From the NCBI GenBank assembly GCA_949285135.1, contig CASDXO010000008.1:62001-126000 (forward strand): DNA of 64,000 nucleotides, read 5' to 3'. The notes under the pieces were generated by a model. The model ran no database searches, was not told where the DNA came from, and worked only from the letters and a program-made list of their open reading frames with translations. Every line of letters starts with the position of its first letter. Within the stretch, counting starts at the first letter, position 1. A program made the translations under genes and the position numbers. This document shows, piece by piece, positions 48,958 through 54,734 of this stretch. The stretch is from an uncultured Phascolarctobacterium sp. (lineage in GTDB: Bacteria > Bacillota > Negativicutes > Acidaminococcales > Acidaminococcaceae).

Positions 48958-48993
48958 ATATTAGATAGAGTTTAATTGATAAAGGAAGAATCC

Positions 48994-49674
48994 ATGCCTA
49001 TTAAAGGAGTATTATTTGATTTTGACGGAACGTTGGCCAATACCAACGAGCTGATTTTATCAGCTTTTGAGCATACGTTTGCGAAATTTCTGTCAAGAAA
49101 TGTTCCCAGAGAAGAAATAGTCAGGACTTTTGGTCTGCCTCTGGCGGATGCGATGGCCTTATATGCGCCATCTCCCAATTTGATTGTCGAGATGCGTGCG
49201 GTTTACAGGCAGTTCAATCTTGAGCATCACGATGAAATGATTAAGACTATTGACGGTGTAGCAGAAGCCTTGACTGCTTTACATGCCAATGGTTTGAAAA
49301 TGGCTGTTGTGACGTCCAAAAAATCACCTATGGCATACAGAGGGTTAAAATGCTGCGGCCTTGAAGCATTTATTTCTGCTGTTGTCGGCTGTGATGATAC
49401 AGAGCATAATAAACCGCATCCTGAACCAATGCTAAAAGCCTGTTCCATGTTGGAGCTTAAACCAGAAGAGTGTATCTGTGTAGGGGATAGCCCCTATGAT
49501 TTACAGAGTGGACAGAGTGCAGGTGCCTTGACTGCTGCTGTTCGATACACATCCTTCAACTGGCCACAAATATTGCGGGAGGGCAAACCTGACTTTATTC
49601 TTGAAAATATGCTGGATTTACCGGCTATCATAGATAAACTTAATTTTTCTGAGGAGGGAAGATACAATGCGTAA
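48994..49674 (+). CDS. HAD-family phosphatase, PpaX-like
   Basis: The protein has 226 residues from ATG 48994, with aaggaag 6 bases upstream. It has the HAD nucleophile motif FDFDGTLANT near residue 8, TSKK in motif II, KPHPEP and the acidic motif IV VGDSPYDLQ. The stretch NTNELILSAFEHT and RQFNLEHHDE match the Bacillus pyrophosphatase PpaX closely in pattern; phosphoglycolate phosphatase is the main alternative. It overlaps the next gene by 8 bases, so it heads the salvage operon. A link to that pathway (for example PPi removal or a sugar-phosphate side activity) is only inference. Confidence 0.82.
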   Translation: MPIKGVLFDFDGTLANTNELILSAFEHTFAKFLSRNVPREEIVRTFGLPLADAMALYAPSPNLIVEMRAVYRQFNLEHHDEMIKTIDGVAEALTALHANGLKMAVVTSKKSPMAYRGLKCCGLEAFISAVVGCDDTEHNKPHPEPMLKACSMLELKPEECICVGDSPYDLQSGQSAGALTAAVRYTSFNWPQILREGKPDFILENMLDLPAIIDKLNFSEEGRYNA

Positions 49675-50464
49675 AATTGCCATCATTGGCGGTACCGGGA
49701 TATACAGTCCGGAAGCATTGAGCGGATTTGAAAGCAAGATAATCCAGACTCCTTATGGTCCTGCTTTGTGTAATATTGGAGAAATGTCAGGCAATATGGT
49801 AGTATTTATTACCAGACATGGTGTAGGACATAAGACTCCGCCGCACAAAGTAAACTATCGTGCTAATATCTGGGCTTTAAAGAGTCTGGGTGTGGAGGAA
49901 ATTTTTGCTACGACTGCCGTAGGTTCTTTAAATAAAGAGATGAAAGCAGGGCATTTTGTAGTATGCGATCAGGTACTTGATTTTACCAAGAGCAGAATCA
50001 ATACATTTTATGATACACCAGAGCGAGGAGTTGCACATGTGGATTTTACTAATCCATATTGTCCTGTGCTGCGTGAAAAGGTTATTAACTGTCTGAAAAA
50101 TACTGATATAGTATTCCACGAGCACGGAACCTATGTATGTACTGAAGGCCCTCGTTTTGAAACGGCTGCTGAAATCAAAATGTTCGCCCAGATGGGTGGT
50201 GATTTGGTAGGCATGACAAATATGCCGGAGTCGCTGCTGGCGCGTGAGGCGGAGATGTGCTATACAAACTGCTCTATTGTTACTAATATGGCTGCCGGAA
50301 TTTCACCAACACCGTTATCCCATAGTGAAGTAGTTGAAGAAATGCAGCGCAGTATTGCCAATATGGAGAAACTTATCTCCGCATTTATTGCTTATGATGG
50401 GCCAGTACATACTGAGTGCGGCTGTCATAACTGTATGGCAGAATTTGGTGGATTTAAACTGTAG
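49667..50464 (+). CDS. MTA/MTI phosphorylase family protein, probable 6-oxopurine (methylthioinosine) type
   Basis: The 265-residue protein belongs to the trimeric purine nucleoside/MTA phosphorylases: IIGGTGIYSPE at the start, RHGVGHKTPPHKVNYRAN for phosphate and ribose, and TEGPRFETAAEI plus GMTNMPESLLAREAEMCY for the nucleoside site. In human MTA phosphorylase two Asp residues (220, 222) bind the adenine N6/N7; the matching segment here is VTNMAAG, with N207 and A209. This resembles the Asn of 6-oxopurine enzymes, so methylthioinosine or 5'-deoxyinosine are likely substrates. The C-terminal CGCHNC at 251-256 is an added Cys cluster. Neighbours mtnA and a deaminase fit this view. It is cytoplasmic. 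Confidence 0.85.
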   Translation: MRKIAIIGGTGIYSPEALSGFESKIIQTPYGPALCNIGEMSGNMVVFITRHGVGHKTPPHKVNYRANIWALKSLGVEEIFATTAVGSLNKEMKAGHFVVCDQVLDFTKSRINTFYDTPERGVAHVDFTNPYCPVLREKVINCLKNTDIVFHEHGTYVCTEGPRFETAAEIKMFAQMGGDLVGMTNMPESLLAREAEMCYTNCSIVTNMAAGISPTPLSHSEVVEEMQRSIANMEKLISAFIAYDGPVHTECGCHNCMAEFGGFKL

Positions 50465-50476
50465 GGAAGTGTTCGT

Positions 50477-51529
50477 ATGACTGAAACCATGCGTTGGGAA
50501 GACGGCAGGTTAATATTATTGGATCAGACAAAATTACCGCAGGAAAGTGCCTTGATTTCCTGTAAAGACTATAAACGTGTTAAAGAAGCAATCAAGAAAC
50601 TGGAAGTTAGAGGAGCGCCGGCAATCGGTGCTGCTGCCGCTTTTGCAATGGTTTTAGGGGCAAAGGAAGCTGCAAATCGTCCTGATTTCTTAGGTGCCTT
50701 GACTAAGATAAAGGATGATTTAATCAGTGCACGTCCTACCGCAGTAAATCTGCAGTGGGGAGCAGAAAAGATATACAGACTTGCTGCCAAGCTGACAGAA
50801 GAGCTGACTGTGCCTGTTAAAATTATTGAGAAGCTGGAACAGCTTGCTGTAGAAATTTATAAAAATGATATAGCAGTAAATAAGAAAATAGGATGCTATG
50901 GTGCGGAAATACTGCCTGACAACGCCGTTGTCCTGACACATTGTAATGCCGGAGCACTGGCAACATGCGGCTGGGGAACTGCCTTGGGTGTTGTTCGTGC
51001 GGCTTATAGCCTTGGTAAGCTGCAAATGGTATATGCCGACGAAACCAGACCTTTGTTGCAGGGTGCACGTTTAACAGCTTATGAATTGTCTGAAGATAAT
51101 ATTCCCGTTACCGTTATAACCGATGGCATGGCTGCTTGGACGATGAAAACCAAAGGTATAAATGCTGTTGTTGTAGGTGCAGACCGTATTGCTGCAAATG
51201 GCGATACGGCAAATAAAATTGGTACTTACGGTGTAGCCTTGGCTGCTAAAGCACATAATATTCCGTTTTATATAGCAGCGCCGGTGAGTACTTTTGATTT
51301 TACGCTGACTGACGGCAGCAGTATACCGATTGAGGAACGCGGAGCCTGGGAAGTAAGAGGCTTTGGCCAGGAAAAAACAGTACCGTCGAAAGCAGGAATC
51401 TTTAATCCGGCCTTCGATGTTACTCCGGCTGAGCTTATTACGGGCATAATAACGGAATATGGCGTGGTTAAAGCGCCTTATAAAGAAAATATAAGATTAT
51501 TGCAGAAACATCTTGAGGAGGAAAACTGA
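50477..51529 (+). CDS. mtnA: Methylthioribose-1-phosphate isomerase
   Basis: MtnA converts the aldose 5-methylthioribose-1-phosphate to the ketose 5-methylthioribulose-1-phosphate; related enzymes also accept 5-deoxyribose-1-phosphate. The 350-residue protein has DQTKLP near 16, VRGAPAIGAAAAFAM near 44, and the catalytic pair C156 (THCNAGALAT) and D236 (GADRIAANGD), 80 residues apart as in the Bacillus enzyme (C160, D240). This fully matches MtnA rather than the related eIF2B subunits. It follows the phosphorylase by 12 bases; the hydrolase gene follows by 3 bases. Confidence 0.96.
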   Translation: MTETMRWEDGRLILLDQTKLPQESALISCKDYKRVKEAIKKLEVRGAPAIGAAAAFAMVLGAKEAANRPDFLGALTKIKDDLISARPTAVNLQWGAEKIYRLAAKLTEELTVPVKIIEKLEQLAVEIYKNDIAVNKKIGCYGAEILPDNAVVLTHCNAGALATCGWGTALGVVRAAYSLGKLQMVYADETRPLLQGARLTAYELSEDNIPVTVITDGMAAWTMKTKGINAVVVGADRIAANGDTANKIGTYGVALAAKAHNIPFYIAAPVSTFDFTLTDGSSIPIEERGAWEVRGFGQEKTVPSKAGIFNPAFDVTPAELITGIITEYGVVKAPYKENIRLLQKHLEEEN

Positions 51530-51532
51530 TTC

Positions 51533-52777
51533 ATGGAAAGCATGATTAAAGATATCAATTTAGCCGAATCAGGCAAACAGAAGATTGCCTGGGTTAAAGA
51601 ATACATGCCACTTTTAAATATTCTGAACGAAAAGTACAGCAAAGAGCAGATTTTTAAAGGTATCAATATGGTTGTTACTATCCATCTGGAAGCAAAAACT
51701 GCTTATTTAGCACAGGTATTAAAAAATGCAGGTGCTAATGTAGTTGTTACCGGCAGCAATCCTCTCTCTACTCAAGATGATGTTGCTGCTGCGCTTGTAG
51801 ATAGCGGTATTACAGTATTTGCTACTCATGCCTGCACTAATGAAGAATATGATACATACCTTCGTAAAGCGCTGGAAATTGAGCCTGATCTGATTATCGA
51901 CGATGGCGGCGATCTGGTAAATATGCTGCATGGCGAAAGAAAAGACCTTATTGGTAAACTTATCGGTGGCAGTGAAGAAACAACTACCGGCGTGCATCGC
52001 CTGAAAGCACTTTCCAAAGCAGGTCATCTTGCTTTTCCAATGATAGCTGTAAATGATGCTTACTGTAAGTACCTTTTTGATAACCGTTATGGTACGGGTC
52101 AATCCTCCTGGGACGGTATTATGCGTACTACCAACCTGTCAGTTGCCGGCAAGACAGTTGTCGTTGCGGGTTACGGCTGGTGCGGCAAAGGCGTTGCCAT
52201 GCGTGCTAAAGGTATGGGGGCTAATGTCATCGTTACTGAAATTGATCCGATTAAAGGTATTGAAGCAGTTTTTGACGGTTTCAGAGTTATGCCTATGGCA
52301 GAAGCTGCTAAGTATGGTGATATCTTTGTAACTGTAACTGGCTGCAAGGATGTAATTACCAAAGAACATATGCAAGTTATGAAAGACGGCGCGGTATTAT
52401 CTAATGCAGGCCATTTTGATGTTGAAGTTAACAAGCATCATCTGGAAGAACTGTCCGTAATTGCTCCGTATGAAGTGCGTAAAAATATCACTACCTATAC
52501 CATGGCTGACGGACGTAAACTTAATCTGTTAGGCGAGGGTCGCCTTGTAAATCTCGCTTGCGGTGACGGTCATCCTATCGAAGTTATGGACTTATCTTTT
52601 GCCATGCAATTTTTGGCAATGAAATATCTGCTGGAACATAAAGGCAGCATGGAAAACAAACTTTATGTTCTGCCGGAAGAACTTAATACTGAAGTAGCAG
52701 CACTGAAGCTTGCAGCCATGGGTGCAGGTATTGACAAGCTTACACCGGAACAGCAGGCATATCTGGAGCAGGAATAA
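51533..52777 (+). CDS. ahcY: Adenosylhomocysteinase-family hydrolase, archaeal type, possibly acting on S-inosylhomocysteine
   Basis: The family splits SAH into homocysteine and the nucleoside through an NAD-bound oxidation. The 414-residue protein lacks the 40-residue insert and the C-terminal Lys/Tyr tail of the common bacterial and eukaryotic form and so resembles the archaeal/Thermotoga group. Core residues are in place: H51, D123-D124, E149, K179, D183, H294 and H347, plus the NAD motif GYGWCGKGVA near 213. Where the human enzyme has T57 and E59 against the adenine, this protein has E53 and K55 (HLEAKTA). A Lys in place of Glu would suit the O6 of hypoxanthine. With a deaminase in the same operon, S-inosylhomocysteine is a plausible true substrate. 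Confidence 0.92.
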   Translation: MESMIKDINLAESGKQKIAWVKEYMPLLNILNEKYSKEQIFKGINMVVTIHLEAKTAYLAQVLKNAGANVVVTGSNPLSTQDDVAAALVDSGITVFATHACTNEEYDTYLRKALEIEPDLIIDDGGDLVNMLHGERKDLIGKLIGGSEETTTGVHRLKALSKAGHLAFPMIAVNDAYCKYLFDNRYGTGQSSWDGIMRTTNLSVAGKTVVVAGYGWCGKGVAMRAKGMGANVIVTEIDPIKGIEAVFDGFRVMPMAEAAKYGDIFVTVTGCKDVITKEHMQVMKDGAVLSNAGHFDVEVNKHHLEELSVIAPYEVRKNITTYTMADGRKLNLLGEGRLVNLACGDGHPIEVMDLSFAMQFLAMKYLLEHKGSMENKLYVLPEELNTEVAALKLAAMGAGIDKLTPEQQAYLEQE

Positions 52778-52779
52778 TT

Positions 52780-53457
52780 ATGTATAGTTTACAGGACAGG
52801 GATAAGTTGGCTTGCAGCAGTATTGTTGCGACAGGCAAGCTGTTGATGGAAAAGCATCTGGTAGCTGGGTCATGGGGAAATATCAGTTGTAAAATAGGTG
52901 AGAGTATTTACGCTGTAACTCCCTCCGGCAAAGGATATGCTGGACTTACTGAGAACGATATCGTTATTATTGATCATCAGTGTAATACTGTTTGGGGCAG
53001 ACATGTGCCTTCCTCAGAAAGTAAACTGCATGCTGCCATTTATTCAGCCTGTCCTGAGGCTCAGGCGGTAATTCATACGCACAGTATTTACGCCAGTGCA
53101 CTGGCAGCCATGCACAAATCTGTGCCGCCTATTATTGAAGATATAGTGCAAATTATAGGTGGAAGTGTCAGCTGTGCGGAATATGCTTTACCGGGTACTC
53201 AGCAACTTGCTGATAATGCTGTACGGGCTTTGAATGGACGCAAAGCTGTACTTTTAGCAAATCATGGCGCTGTCTGCTGGGGTAAATCGTTGGATGACGT
53301 GCTGATTGTTGCTGAGATCCTCGAAAAAGCGGCACAGATTGCCATAATATGCCAAAACTGCGGCGGAGCAATAGAGCTGCCTGAAAGTGATATTGCTGTA
53401 ATGCATGATTTTTATAACAGGCATTATTCCAAACGTCAAATGGGAGAAGAAGAATGA
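52780..53457 (+). CDS. Class II aldolase (FucA-like), candidate 5-methylthioribulose/5-deoxyribulose-1-phosphate aldolase
   Basis: The 225-residue protein has the zinc aldolase fold of L-fuculose-1-phosphate aldolase. Catalytic E80 (PSSESK) and zinc ligands H99, H101 (IHTHS) and H162 (ANHGAV) have exactly the same spacing as E73, H92, H94 and H155 of E. coli FucA. GSWGNIS and TPSGKGYAGL bind the phosphate. Being next to mtnA, it probably splits 5-methylthioribulose-1-phosphate to DHAP and methylthioacetaldehyde, and the 5-deoxy form to DHAP and acetaldehyde, as in the DHAP shunt. The other candidate, the dehydratase MtnB, is also a class II aldolase homologue, but MtnC/MtnD partners are absent and it needs oxygen later on. 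It overlaps the deaminase gene by 4 bases. Confidence 0.85.
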   Translation: MYSLQDRDKLACSSIVATGKLLMEKHLVAGSWGNISCKIGESIYAVTPSGKGYAGLTENDIVIIDHQCNTVWGRHVPSSESKLHAAIYSACPEAQAVIHTHSIYASALAAMHKSVPPIIEDIVQIIGGSVSCAEYALPGTQQLADNAVRALNGRKAVLLANHGAVCWGKSLDDVLIVAEILEKAAQIAIICQNCGGAIELPESDIAVMHDFYNRHYSKRQMGEEE

Positions 53458-54734
53458 GCAGATTATTACTGAAGAATATTGAGCTTCTGGATACACCAAA
53501 CGGAGAGAAAAACTGCATTGCTGTAGAAAATAACCATATCGTTTATGTCGGCAACAAACTTCCGGAGAGCTTCATTGCTGACGAAGTAATTGACGGACAT
53601 GGTATGCTGGCAACAGCAGGTATGGTAAACACCCATGGTCATGTATCTATGACGTTATTGCGCAGTTATGCGGATGACATGGCATTGATGGACTGGCTGG
53701 AAAATAAAATATGGCCCATTGAAGCAAAAATGAATGCAAAAGATATTTATTGGGGCGCCATGTTGGGTATTGCTGAGATGCTGAAAAGTGGTACAACCTC
53801 TTTTGCAGATATGTACTGCTTTATGGATGATGTAGCACGTGCAGTAGCTGAAACCGGTATTCGTGCCAATCTTTCCCGCGGGCTCATTGGACTTGGGCCT
53901 GATAAGGACAGTAAACTGGAAGAAAATACCAGGCTGGTAAAAGACTGGCAGGGCTACGATAATGGACGTATTCGTATAACCTATGGTCCGCATGCACCTT
54001 ATACTTGTCCTGTTGATTATCTGCAGCAGGTAGTTGCTGCTGCGGAGCAAAACAATGCTGAAATCCAGATGCATCTTTGTGAGACACAAGGTGAGGTAGA
54101 AAACTGCATCAAAGAACATGGTCTTACTCCTATTGCATTAATGAATAAATTAGGTATGTTTGAGCAGGGAACTATTGCTGCACACTGTGTTTATTTGTCC
54201 GAAGCTGATATGGATATTATGGCAGAAAAACATGTGCGTGTTGCTCATAACCCGCAAAGTAATCTGAAACTGGCAAGCGGTATAGCGCCTGTTGCCAGGA
54301 TGCTGGAAAAAGGAATCTGCGTAGGTTTGGGTACAGATGGTGCATCAAGTAATAATAATCTTGACATGCTTGAAGAATGCAGAGCCACTGCAATGCTGCA
54401 TAAGACAACGACGATGAATCCGCTGGCAATACCAGCTGCCAAGGCCTGGGAAATGGCAACTGAAAATGGAGCCAAGGTTCTGGGTTTTGAACAGCTGGGA
54501 AAACTTATCGCCGGACAGAAAGCTGATATTGTGCTTTGGAATATGCATAAGCCATATTGGTATCCCAGACACAATAAGCTGTCGCTGCTTGTTTATGCTG
54601 CCAGTGCCAGTGATGCTGATACGGTTCTGGTAGACGGTAAAATTGTGCTGCAAAACGGTACAATGACTTTATTTGACGAAGAAAAAATCTATGCAGAAGC
54701 AAGCCTGCGTGCTCAAAAATTGCTTCTCAAATAA
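53454..54734 (+). CDS. mtaD: MtaD-type MTA/SAH (5'-deoxyadenosine) deaminase
   Basis: The enzyme family deaminates MTA, SAH and in some organisms 5'-deoxyadenosine and adenosine to the inosine forms. The 426-residue amidohydrolase has the metal site H61 and H63 (NTHGHVSM), H207 with catalytic E210 (MHLCET), H244 (AHCVYL) and D295 (LGTDGASSNN). The motifs follow Thermotoga TM0936 and archaeal DadD rather than cytosine or guanine deaminases. It is the last gene of the operon, overlaps the aldolase by 4 bases and is followed by a long hairpin. Its products match the pocket changes seen in the phosphorylase and the hydrolase. Confidence 0.93.
   Translation: MSRLLLKNIELLDTPNGEKNCIAVENNHIVYVGNKLPESFIADEVIDGHGMLATAGMVNTHGHVSMTLLRSYADDMALMDWLENKIWPIEAKMNAKDIYWGAMLGIAEMLKSGTTSFADMYCFMDDVARAVAETGIRANLSRGLIGLGPDKDSKLEENTRLVKDWQGYDNGRIRITYGPHAPYTCPVDYLQQVVAAAEQNNAEIQMHLCETQGEVENCIKEHGLTPIALMNKLGMFEQGTIAAHCVYLSEADMDIMAEKHVRVAHNPQSNLKLASGIAPVARMLEKGICVGLGTDGASSNNNLDMLEECRATAMLHKTTTMNPLAIPAAKAWEMATENGAKVLGFEQLGKLIAGQKADIVLWNMHKPYWYPRHNKLSLLVYAASASDADTVLVDGKIVLQNGTMTLFDEEKIYAEASLRAQKLLLK

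Follow-up and report, generated by a model that had tools for sequence, protein, structure and literature searches.

A predicted 6-oxopurine nucleoside phosphorylase of the methylthioadenosine phosphorylase family in a predicted operon of Phascolarctobacterium with a candidate deaminase gene

Does an enzyme that family models assign to the methylthioadenosine (MTA) phosphorylases (MTAPs) act on MTA, or does it act after deamination, on methylthioinosine (MTI)? This question is raised by a gene in a 64,000-nucleotide stretch of DNA from an uncultured Phascolarctobacterium sp., which was analyzed as a whole and is called the window here. The open reading frame starts with ATG, encodes 265 amino acids, and is preceded by AGGAGGG ∼7 bases 5′ of the start.

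49667..50464, + strand: predicted MTAP-family 6-oxopurine (5′-deoxy)nucleoside phosphorylase, MTI phosphorylase (MTIP)-like (E165, N207, A209, H219, H124)
50279..50299, + strand: VTNMAAG codons, residues 205–211, containing N207 and A209

Base pocket and family assignment of the phosphorylase

We aligned the phosphorylase jointly with human MTAP (sequence identical to PDB code 1cb0), human PNP, Pseudomonas aeruginosa MTIP (PaMTIP), Sulfolobus MTAP, and 257 relatives. The human PNP sequence was checked only by the classic residue numbers E201, N243, H257, and F159. The initial annotation had proposed that D220 and D222 of human MTAP are replaced by N207 and A209, with an Asn as found in 6-oxopurine phosphorylases, and the alignment bears out both points: N207 shares its column with N243 of human PNP and N223 of PaMTIP, and A209 lines up with D222 of human MTAP and A225 of PaMTIP. 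A second diagnostic site, absent from the initial annotation, is E165, which corresponds to S178 of MTAP, E201 of PNP, and E181 of PaMTIP. The Ser/Asp/Asp set of the MTAP base pocket (human S178, D220, and D222) is therefore not present in the phosphorylase, which features Glu, Asn, and Ala instead, and PaMTIP carries the identical set (E181, N223, and A225). Because of this second site, the 6-oxopurine reading is much stronger than it would be from the Asn alone. Outside this set, H219 occupies the column of PNP H257, and H124 retains the site of MTAP His137.

The structure prediction, based on 16 relatives (mean pLDDT 81), has a fold that matches the MTAPs and PaMTIP with hypoxanthine (PDB code 3ozb). 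In these matches of the predicted structure, there is no sign of an alternative residue at the N6/O6 site, the outcome that the initial annotation had named as speaking against its reading.

The phosphorylase matches PF01048 with 160.5 bits. The expectation that automatic annotation would label it an MTAP holds in part: it exceeds the cut-off of the MTAP model TIGR01694, with the higher score (302.8 versus 274.85), but also that of the curated MTIP model NF006599 (272.4 versus 223). Because PaMTIP likewise lies above the TIGR01694 cut-off, this model spans both activities. NF006599 is in turn a weak discriminator by itself, as one Thermococcus relative with the Asp-type pocket just clears it (224.8). 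The class II PNP models are not reached (TIGR01700, 112.9 versus 293.35; NF006054, 137.9 versus 218); the equivalents of the class II PNP residues Glu201, Asn243, and His257 are kept as E165, N207, and H219.

The C terminus of the phosphorylase (window 50414–50461) comprises a Cys-rich ECGCHNC motif and a conserved GGFKL tail, common to Negativicutes.

Operon and purine salvage genes

The phosphorylase gene lies second in a predicted operon of six genes, given here with the remaining members in order.

48976..49674, + strand: HAD-family phosphatase, PpaX-like (NF009804, 232 bits versus 218)
50477..51529, + strand: MtnA, methylthioribose-1-phosphate isomerase (TIGR00512, 416 bits versus 279)
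51533..52777, + strand: S-inosylhomocysteine hydrolase candidate of the SAH hydrolase family (IHLEAK = HxExK)
52780..53457, + strand: class II aldolase, candidate DHAP-shunt aldolase (PF00596, 178.9 bits)
53454..54734, + strand: amidohydrolase, candidate MTA/SAH/5′-deoxyadenosine deaminase, DadD/TM0936-like (R142 in the TM0936 R136 column)

The genes are tightly packed, with overlaps of 8 bases (HAD/phosphorylase) and 4 bases (aldolase/deaminase) and gaps downstream of the phosphorylase of 12 (to MtnA), 3 (to the SAH-hydrolase homologue), and 2 bases (to the aldolase). For the HAD gene, translation more likely starts at the ATG at 48994, which has a ribosome site, than at the TTG given in the list; a HAD gene is found upstream of the phosphorylase in several other families too. 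A search of the window with Rfam for a riboswitch gave none, the single match being a tRNA.

The SAH-hydrolase homologue carries the HxExK fingerprint, not HxTxE/Q, and its nearest solved structure is 7r3a (named S-inosylhomocysteine hydrolase), followed by 7r37 and 3x2e, both with HxExK. In a series of assays, HxExK enzymes favored S-inosylhomocysteine, whereas HxTxE(Q) enzymes favored SAH (PMC10978960), which makes the product of 51533–52777 a candidate S-inosylhomocysteine hydrolase. The class II aldolase is placed by its PF00596 match and its position near MtnA, and scores under every NCBIfam cut-off. The deaminase candidate has the amidohydrolase motifs NTHGH, HLCET, and GTDGASSNN, and its best solved relatives include MTA/SAH deaminases (TM0936 and 4f0r). 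Its R142 aligns with Arg136 of TM0936, and Lys154 stands at the position of Arg148; these two arginines of TM0936 reportedly bind the SAH tail. The curated equivalog cut-offs are not reached by this protein (NF004701, 513 versus 609; NF005557 for 5′-deoxyadenosine deaminase, 367.6 versus 522).

Family searches of the window genome detected HPRT (203.7 bits, cut-off 150). In the same searches, neither APRT (best 53.8 versus 185.85) nor adenine deaminase exceeded its cut-off, and a nucleoside hydrolase was not found; no additional PF01048 protein in this genome fits an MTA nucleosidase or another PNP. The one other PF01048 protein is uridine-phosphorylase-like and adjoins deoB.

Taken with the E165/N207/A209 set, the deaminase, the HxExK hydrolase, and HPRT without APRT make a predicted base pocket of the 6-oxopurine type well supported. 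That the protein is nevertheless an ordinary MTA phosphorylase despite its altered residues is very improbable: TIGR01694 is its top-scoring model and the cut-off is passed, but S178, D220, and D222 are all swapped for the 6-oxo set, the genome has no APRT over the cut-off to use the adenine, and the neighboring genes fit a deaminated route.

The claim of the initial annotation that the substrate is MTI rather than MTA thus stands as far as the pocket is concerned, but not in its narrow form of an MTI-only specificity. MTI as a substrate is supported by the context, as MtnA and the aldolase are predicted to act downstream on 5-deoxypentose phosphates. Inosine is probably also accepted, because H219 matches PNP H257. 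Moreover, inosine is expected from the SAH-hydrolase homologue in a genome without other PNP, which disfavors a specificity for MTI only. A broad 6-oxo nucleoside phosphorylase for MTI, 5′-deoxyinosine, and inosine would fit better, and the enzyme is most safely described as a 6-oxopurine nucleoside phosphorylase whose likely main substrates are MTI and 5′-deoxyinosine.

Distribution of pocket types and neighboring genes

The 257 relatives split perfectly into 198 proteins with Asn and Glu (N-type) and 59 with Asp, Ser, and Asp (D-type). All 198 N-types pair N207 with E165, and all 59 D-types combine D207, S165, and D209. H219 is present in 195/198 N-types but also in 27/59 D-types, and was ruled out as proof of a PNP on this ground. 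When the specificity columns are left out, the tree contains a single N/D change; the branch of PaMTIP is long and uncertain in it. Asn207 is therefore an old trait common to a large clade and not peculiar to the gene of the window.

A homologue of the phosphorylase occurs in 235 of the 250 genomes of the class to which the window genome belongs, some of these matches being distant, and the nearest named loci are from Phascolarctobacterium assemblies (84%). The 80 named loci, which belong to Negativicutes and to Desulfotomaculum, Pelotomaculum, Moorella, Syntrophomonadaceae, and Alicyclobacillus relatives, mostly show the cluster again, complete or partial. It is thus not unique to the window but found throughout Negativicutes and in many anaerobic Bacillota. 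Among the 157 N-type loci of at least 8 kb, 125 encode MtnA, and 113 of those 125 also contain a deaminase. Where a phosphorylase and an SAH-hydrolase homologue share a locus, N-type goes with HxExK in 113/113 cases and D-type with HxTxE in 3/3; in the single locus with both phosphorylase types, the SAH hydrolase is of the HxTxE kind.

We also compared 89 typed genomes in the phylum of G265, using lists compiled by hand from search outputs. Of the N-only genomes, 68/74 have a strong deaminase homologue, versus 3/15 of the D-only genomes (Fisher p 3e-8, kinship ignored); for APRT, the counts are 28/74 and 14/15 (Fisher p 9e-5, kinship ignored); because the N/D split is one change on the tree, these counts are not independent events. 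In G303 and G368 (loci L216 and L264), a D-type gene lies directly 3′ of the APRT gene, as expected if the D-type enzyme releases adenine.

The association has exceptions. Twelve genomes with an N-type gene lack a strong deaminase homologue (G252, G394, G280, G275, G361, G322, G458, G369, G402, G431, G330, and G403, the last with a weak match only), and APRT is found in 12/12. In Thermococci (L294–L318, phylum of G255), a D-type MTAP gene adjoins a deaminase homologue, with 41–44% identity to that of the window, in about half of the loci, and adjacency to a deaminase was rejected as proof by itself for this reason. The genomes of L294–L318 have a second MTAP-family gene, which is N-type in L089. 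Owing to the deaminase-poor N-type genomes and the Thermococci with D-type genes beside a deaminase, Asn207 alone is not decisive. In G418 and G445 (L330 and L331), only D-type phosphorylases were found, yet an HxExK hydrolase lies beside a deaminase; judged by these genes, one cell may process SAH and MTA by separate routes. All three sets of exceptions indicate that parts of the pathway can be mixed.

One cluster (L202/L079, genome G252) combines N-type and D-type phosphorylases, MtnA, an aldolase, an HxTxE SAH hydrolase, and APRT in a genome without deaminase homologue; its gene content suggests that the deaminated route was exchanged for the adenine-releasing one. Further N-types (L246, L249, and L355–L358), several beside MtnA, occur in genomes that have APRT and a D-type copy and no deaminase homologue.

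The N-type genes of genomes without deaminase, together with the Thermococcus paralogue L089, could also indicate a general inosine/guanosine phosphorylase, which would mainly serve inosine from the SAH-hydrolase homologue, with MTI as a minor substrate. The P. furiosus PNP is an MTAP-like protein that is specific for inosine and guanosine. The alignment of H219 with PNP H257, by which 5′-OH nucleosides may be preferred, and the lack of another PNP or nucleoside hydrolase in the window genome point the same way. However, H219 is not diagnostic, given its occurrence in D-types, H124 at the MTAP His137 site is retained, and MtnA, which needs a 5-deoxypentose-1-phosphate, is encoded directly next to the phosphorylase here and recurs in the N-type loci counted above. 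We consider this alternative unlikely. Instead, the phosphorylase is probably, and with good confidence, an MTAP-family 6-oxopurine nucleoside phosphorylase working after deamination.

A proposed deaminate-first route and its relation to known systems

In the route that we propose, the deaminase would convert MTA, 5′-deoxyadenosine, and SAH to MTI, 5′-deoxyinosine, and S-inosylhomocysteine. As suggested by E165/N207/A209 and the gene context, the phosphorylase would then cleave MTI and 5′-deoxyinosine with phosphate to hypoxanthine and a 5-substituted ribose-1-phosphate; after isomerization of this sugar by MtnA, the class II aldolase would yield DHAP and an aldehyde. The SAH-hydrolase homologue, according to its HxExK fingerprint, would split S-inosylhomocysteine into homocysteine and inosine. 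The latter is probably taken by the same phosphorylase, aided by H219, and hypoxanthine would be recovered by HPRT. As free adenine would not be formed on such a deaminate-first route, APRT could be lost.

Whether the main flux derives from MTI is a separate matter. M. jannaschii MtiP acts on both MTI and 5′-deoxyinosine (PMC6302742), and the DHAP shunt accepts 5dAdo as well as MTA (PMC10986504). It is therefore conceivable, if somewhat doubtful, that the main physiological substrate is 5′-deoxyinosine from radical-SAM chemistry and not polyamine-derived MTI, with the same enzyme and mechanism but another flux; the sequence cannot tell the two nucleosides apart.

The deaminate-first route consists entirely of enzymes of known kinds and is itself known from M. 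jannaschii and, for some of its steps, from T. maritima and P. aeruginosa (PMC6302742, PMC10978960). P. aeruginosa PA3004 (PDB code 3ozb; 40% identity by structural alignment) shares the Glu/Asn/Ala pocket, the fold, and the deaminate-first logic, acting after an MTA deaminase, but has M235 at the 5′ site, where the window phosphorylase has H219. The M. jannaschii route (DadD, S-inosylhomocysteine hydrolase, and MtiP) likewise features deamination, hydrolysis, phosphorolysis, and an HxExK hydrolase (PMC10978960, PMC6302742), whereas in the window, from a gut-type bacterium, a single predicted operon joins these genes to those of MtnA and a class II aldolase; MjMtiP is likened here by description. 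Human MTAP (1cb0) and Sulfolobus MTAP (2a8y) have the fold and the equivalents of M196/T197 and H137 in common with the window phosphorylase, and differ from it by S178/D220/D222 in place of E165/N207/A209. The bacterial DHAP shunt, composed of MtnP or MtnN plus MtnK, followed by MtnA and Ald2 (PMC10986504), likewise has MtnA and a class II aldolase act once the nucleoside has been cleaved. In contrast to this shunt, the route proposed for the window deaminates first and employs a 6-oxo-type phosphorylase, with an aldolase assigned by family alone.

As far as open papers show, what is new is that the genes form a compact predicted operon together with MtnA and the aldolase, and that this arrangement is widespread in anaerobic Bacillota, including gut groups. 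The S-inosylhomocysteine/MTI route has been described as limited to certain Euryarchaeota and related thermophilic bacteria (PMC10978960). We regard it as an evenly balanced proposition that in anaerobes one deaminase commits MTA, 5′-deoxyadenosine, and SAH to hypoxanthine nucleosides, with a single phosphorylase for MTI, 5′-deoxyinosine, and inosine encoded in the same operon, as the norm in Negativicutes and not as a peculiarity of thermophiles and methanogens. If true, the S-inosylhomocysteine/MTI route would extend to common groups such as Phascolarctobacterium, Acidaminococcus, and Veillonella relatives. It would also correct a likely misannotation in very many genomes of gut and anaerobic Bacillota, and the three-residue rule of Glu/Asn/Ala versus Ser/Asp/Asp would let pipelines tell 6-oxo from 6-amino enzymes.
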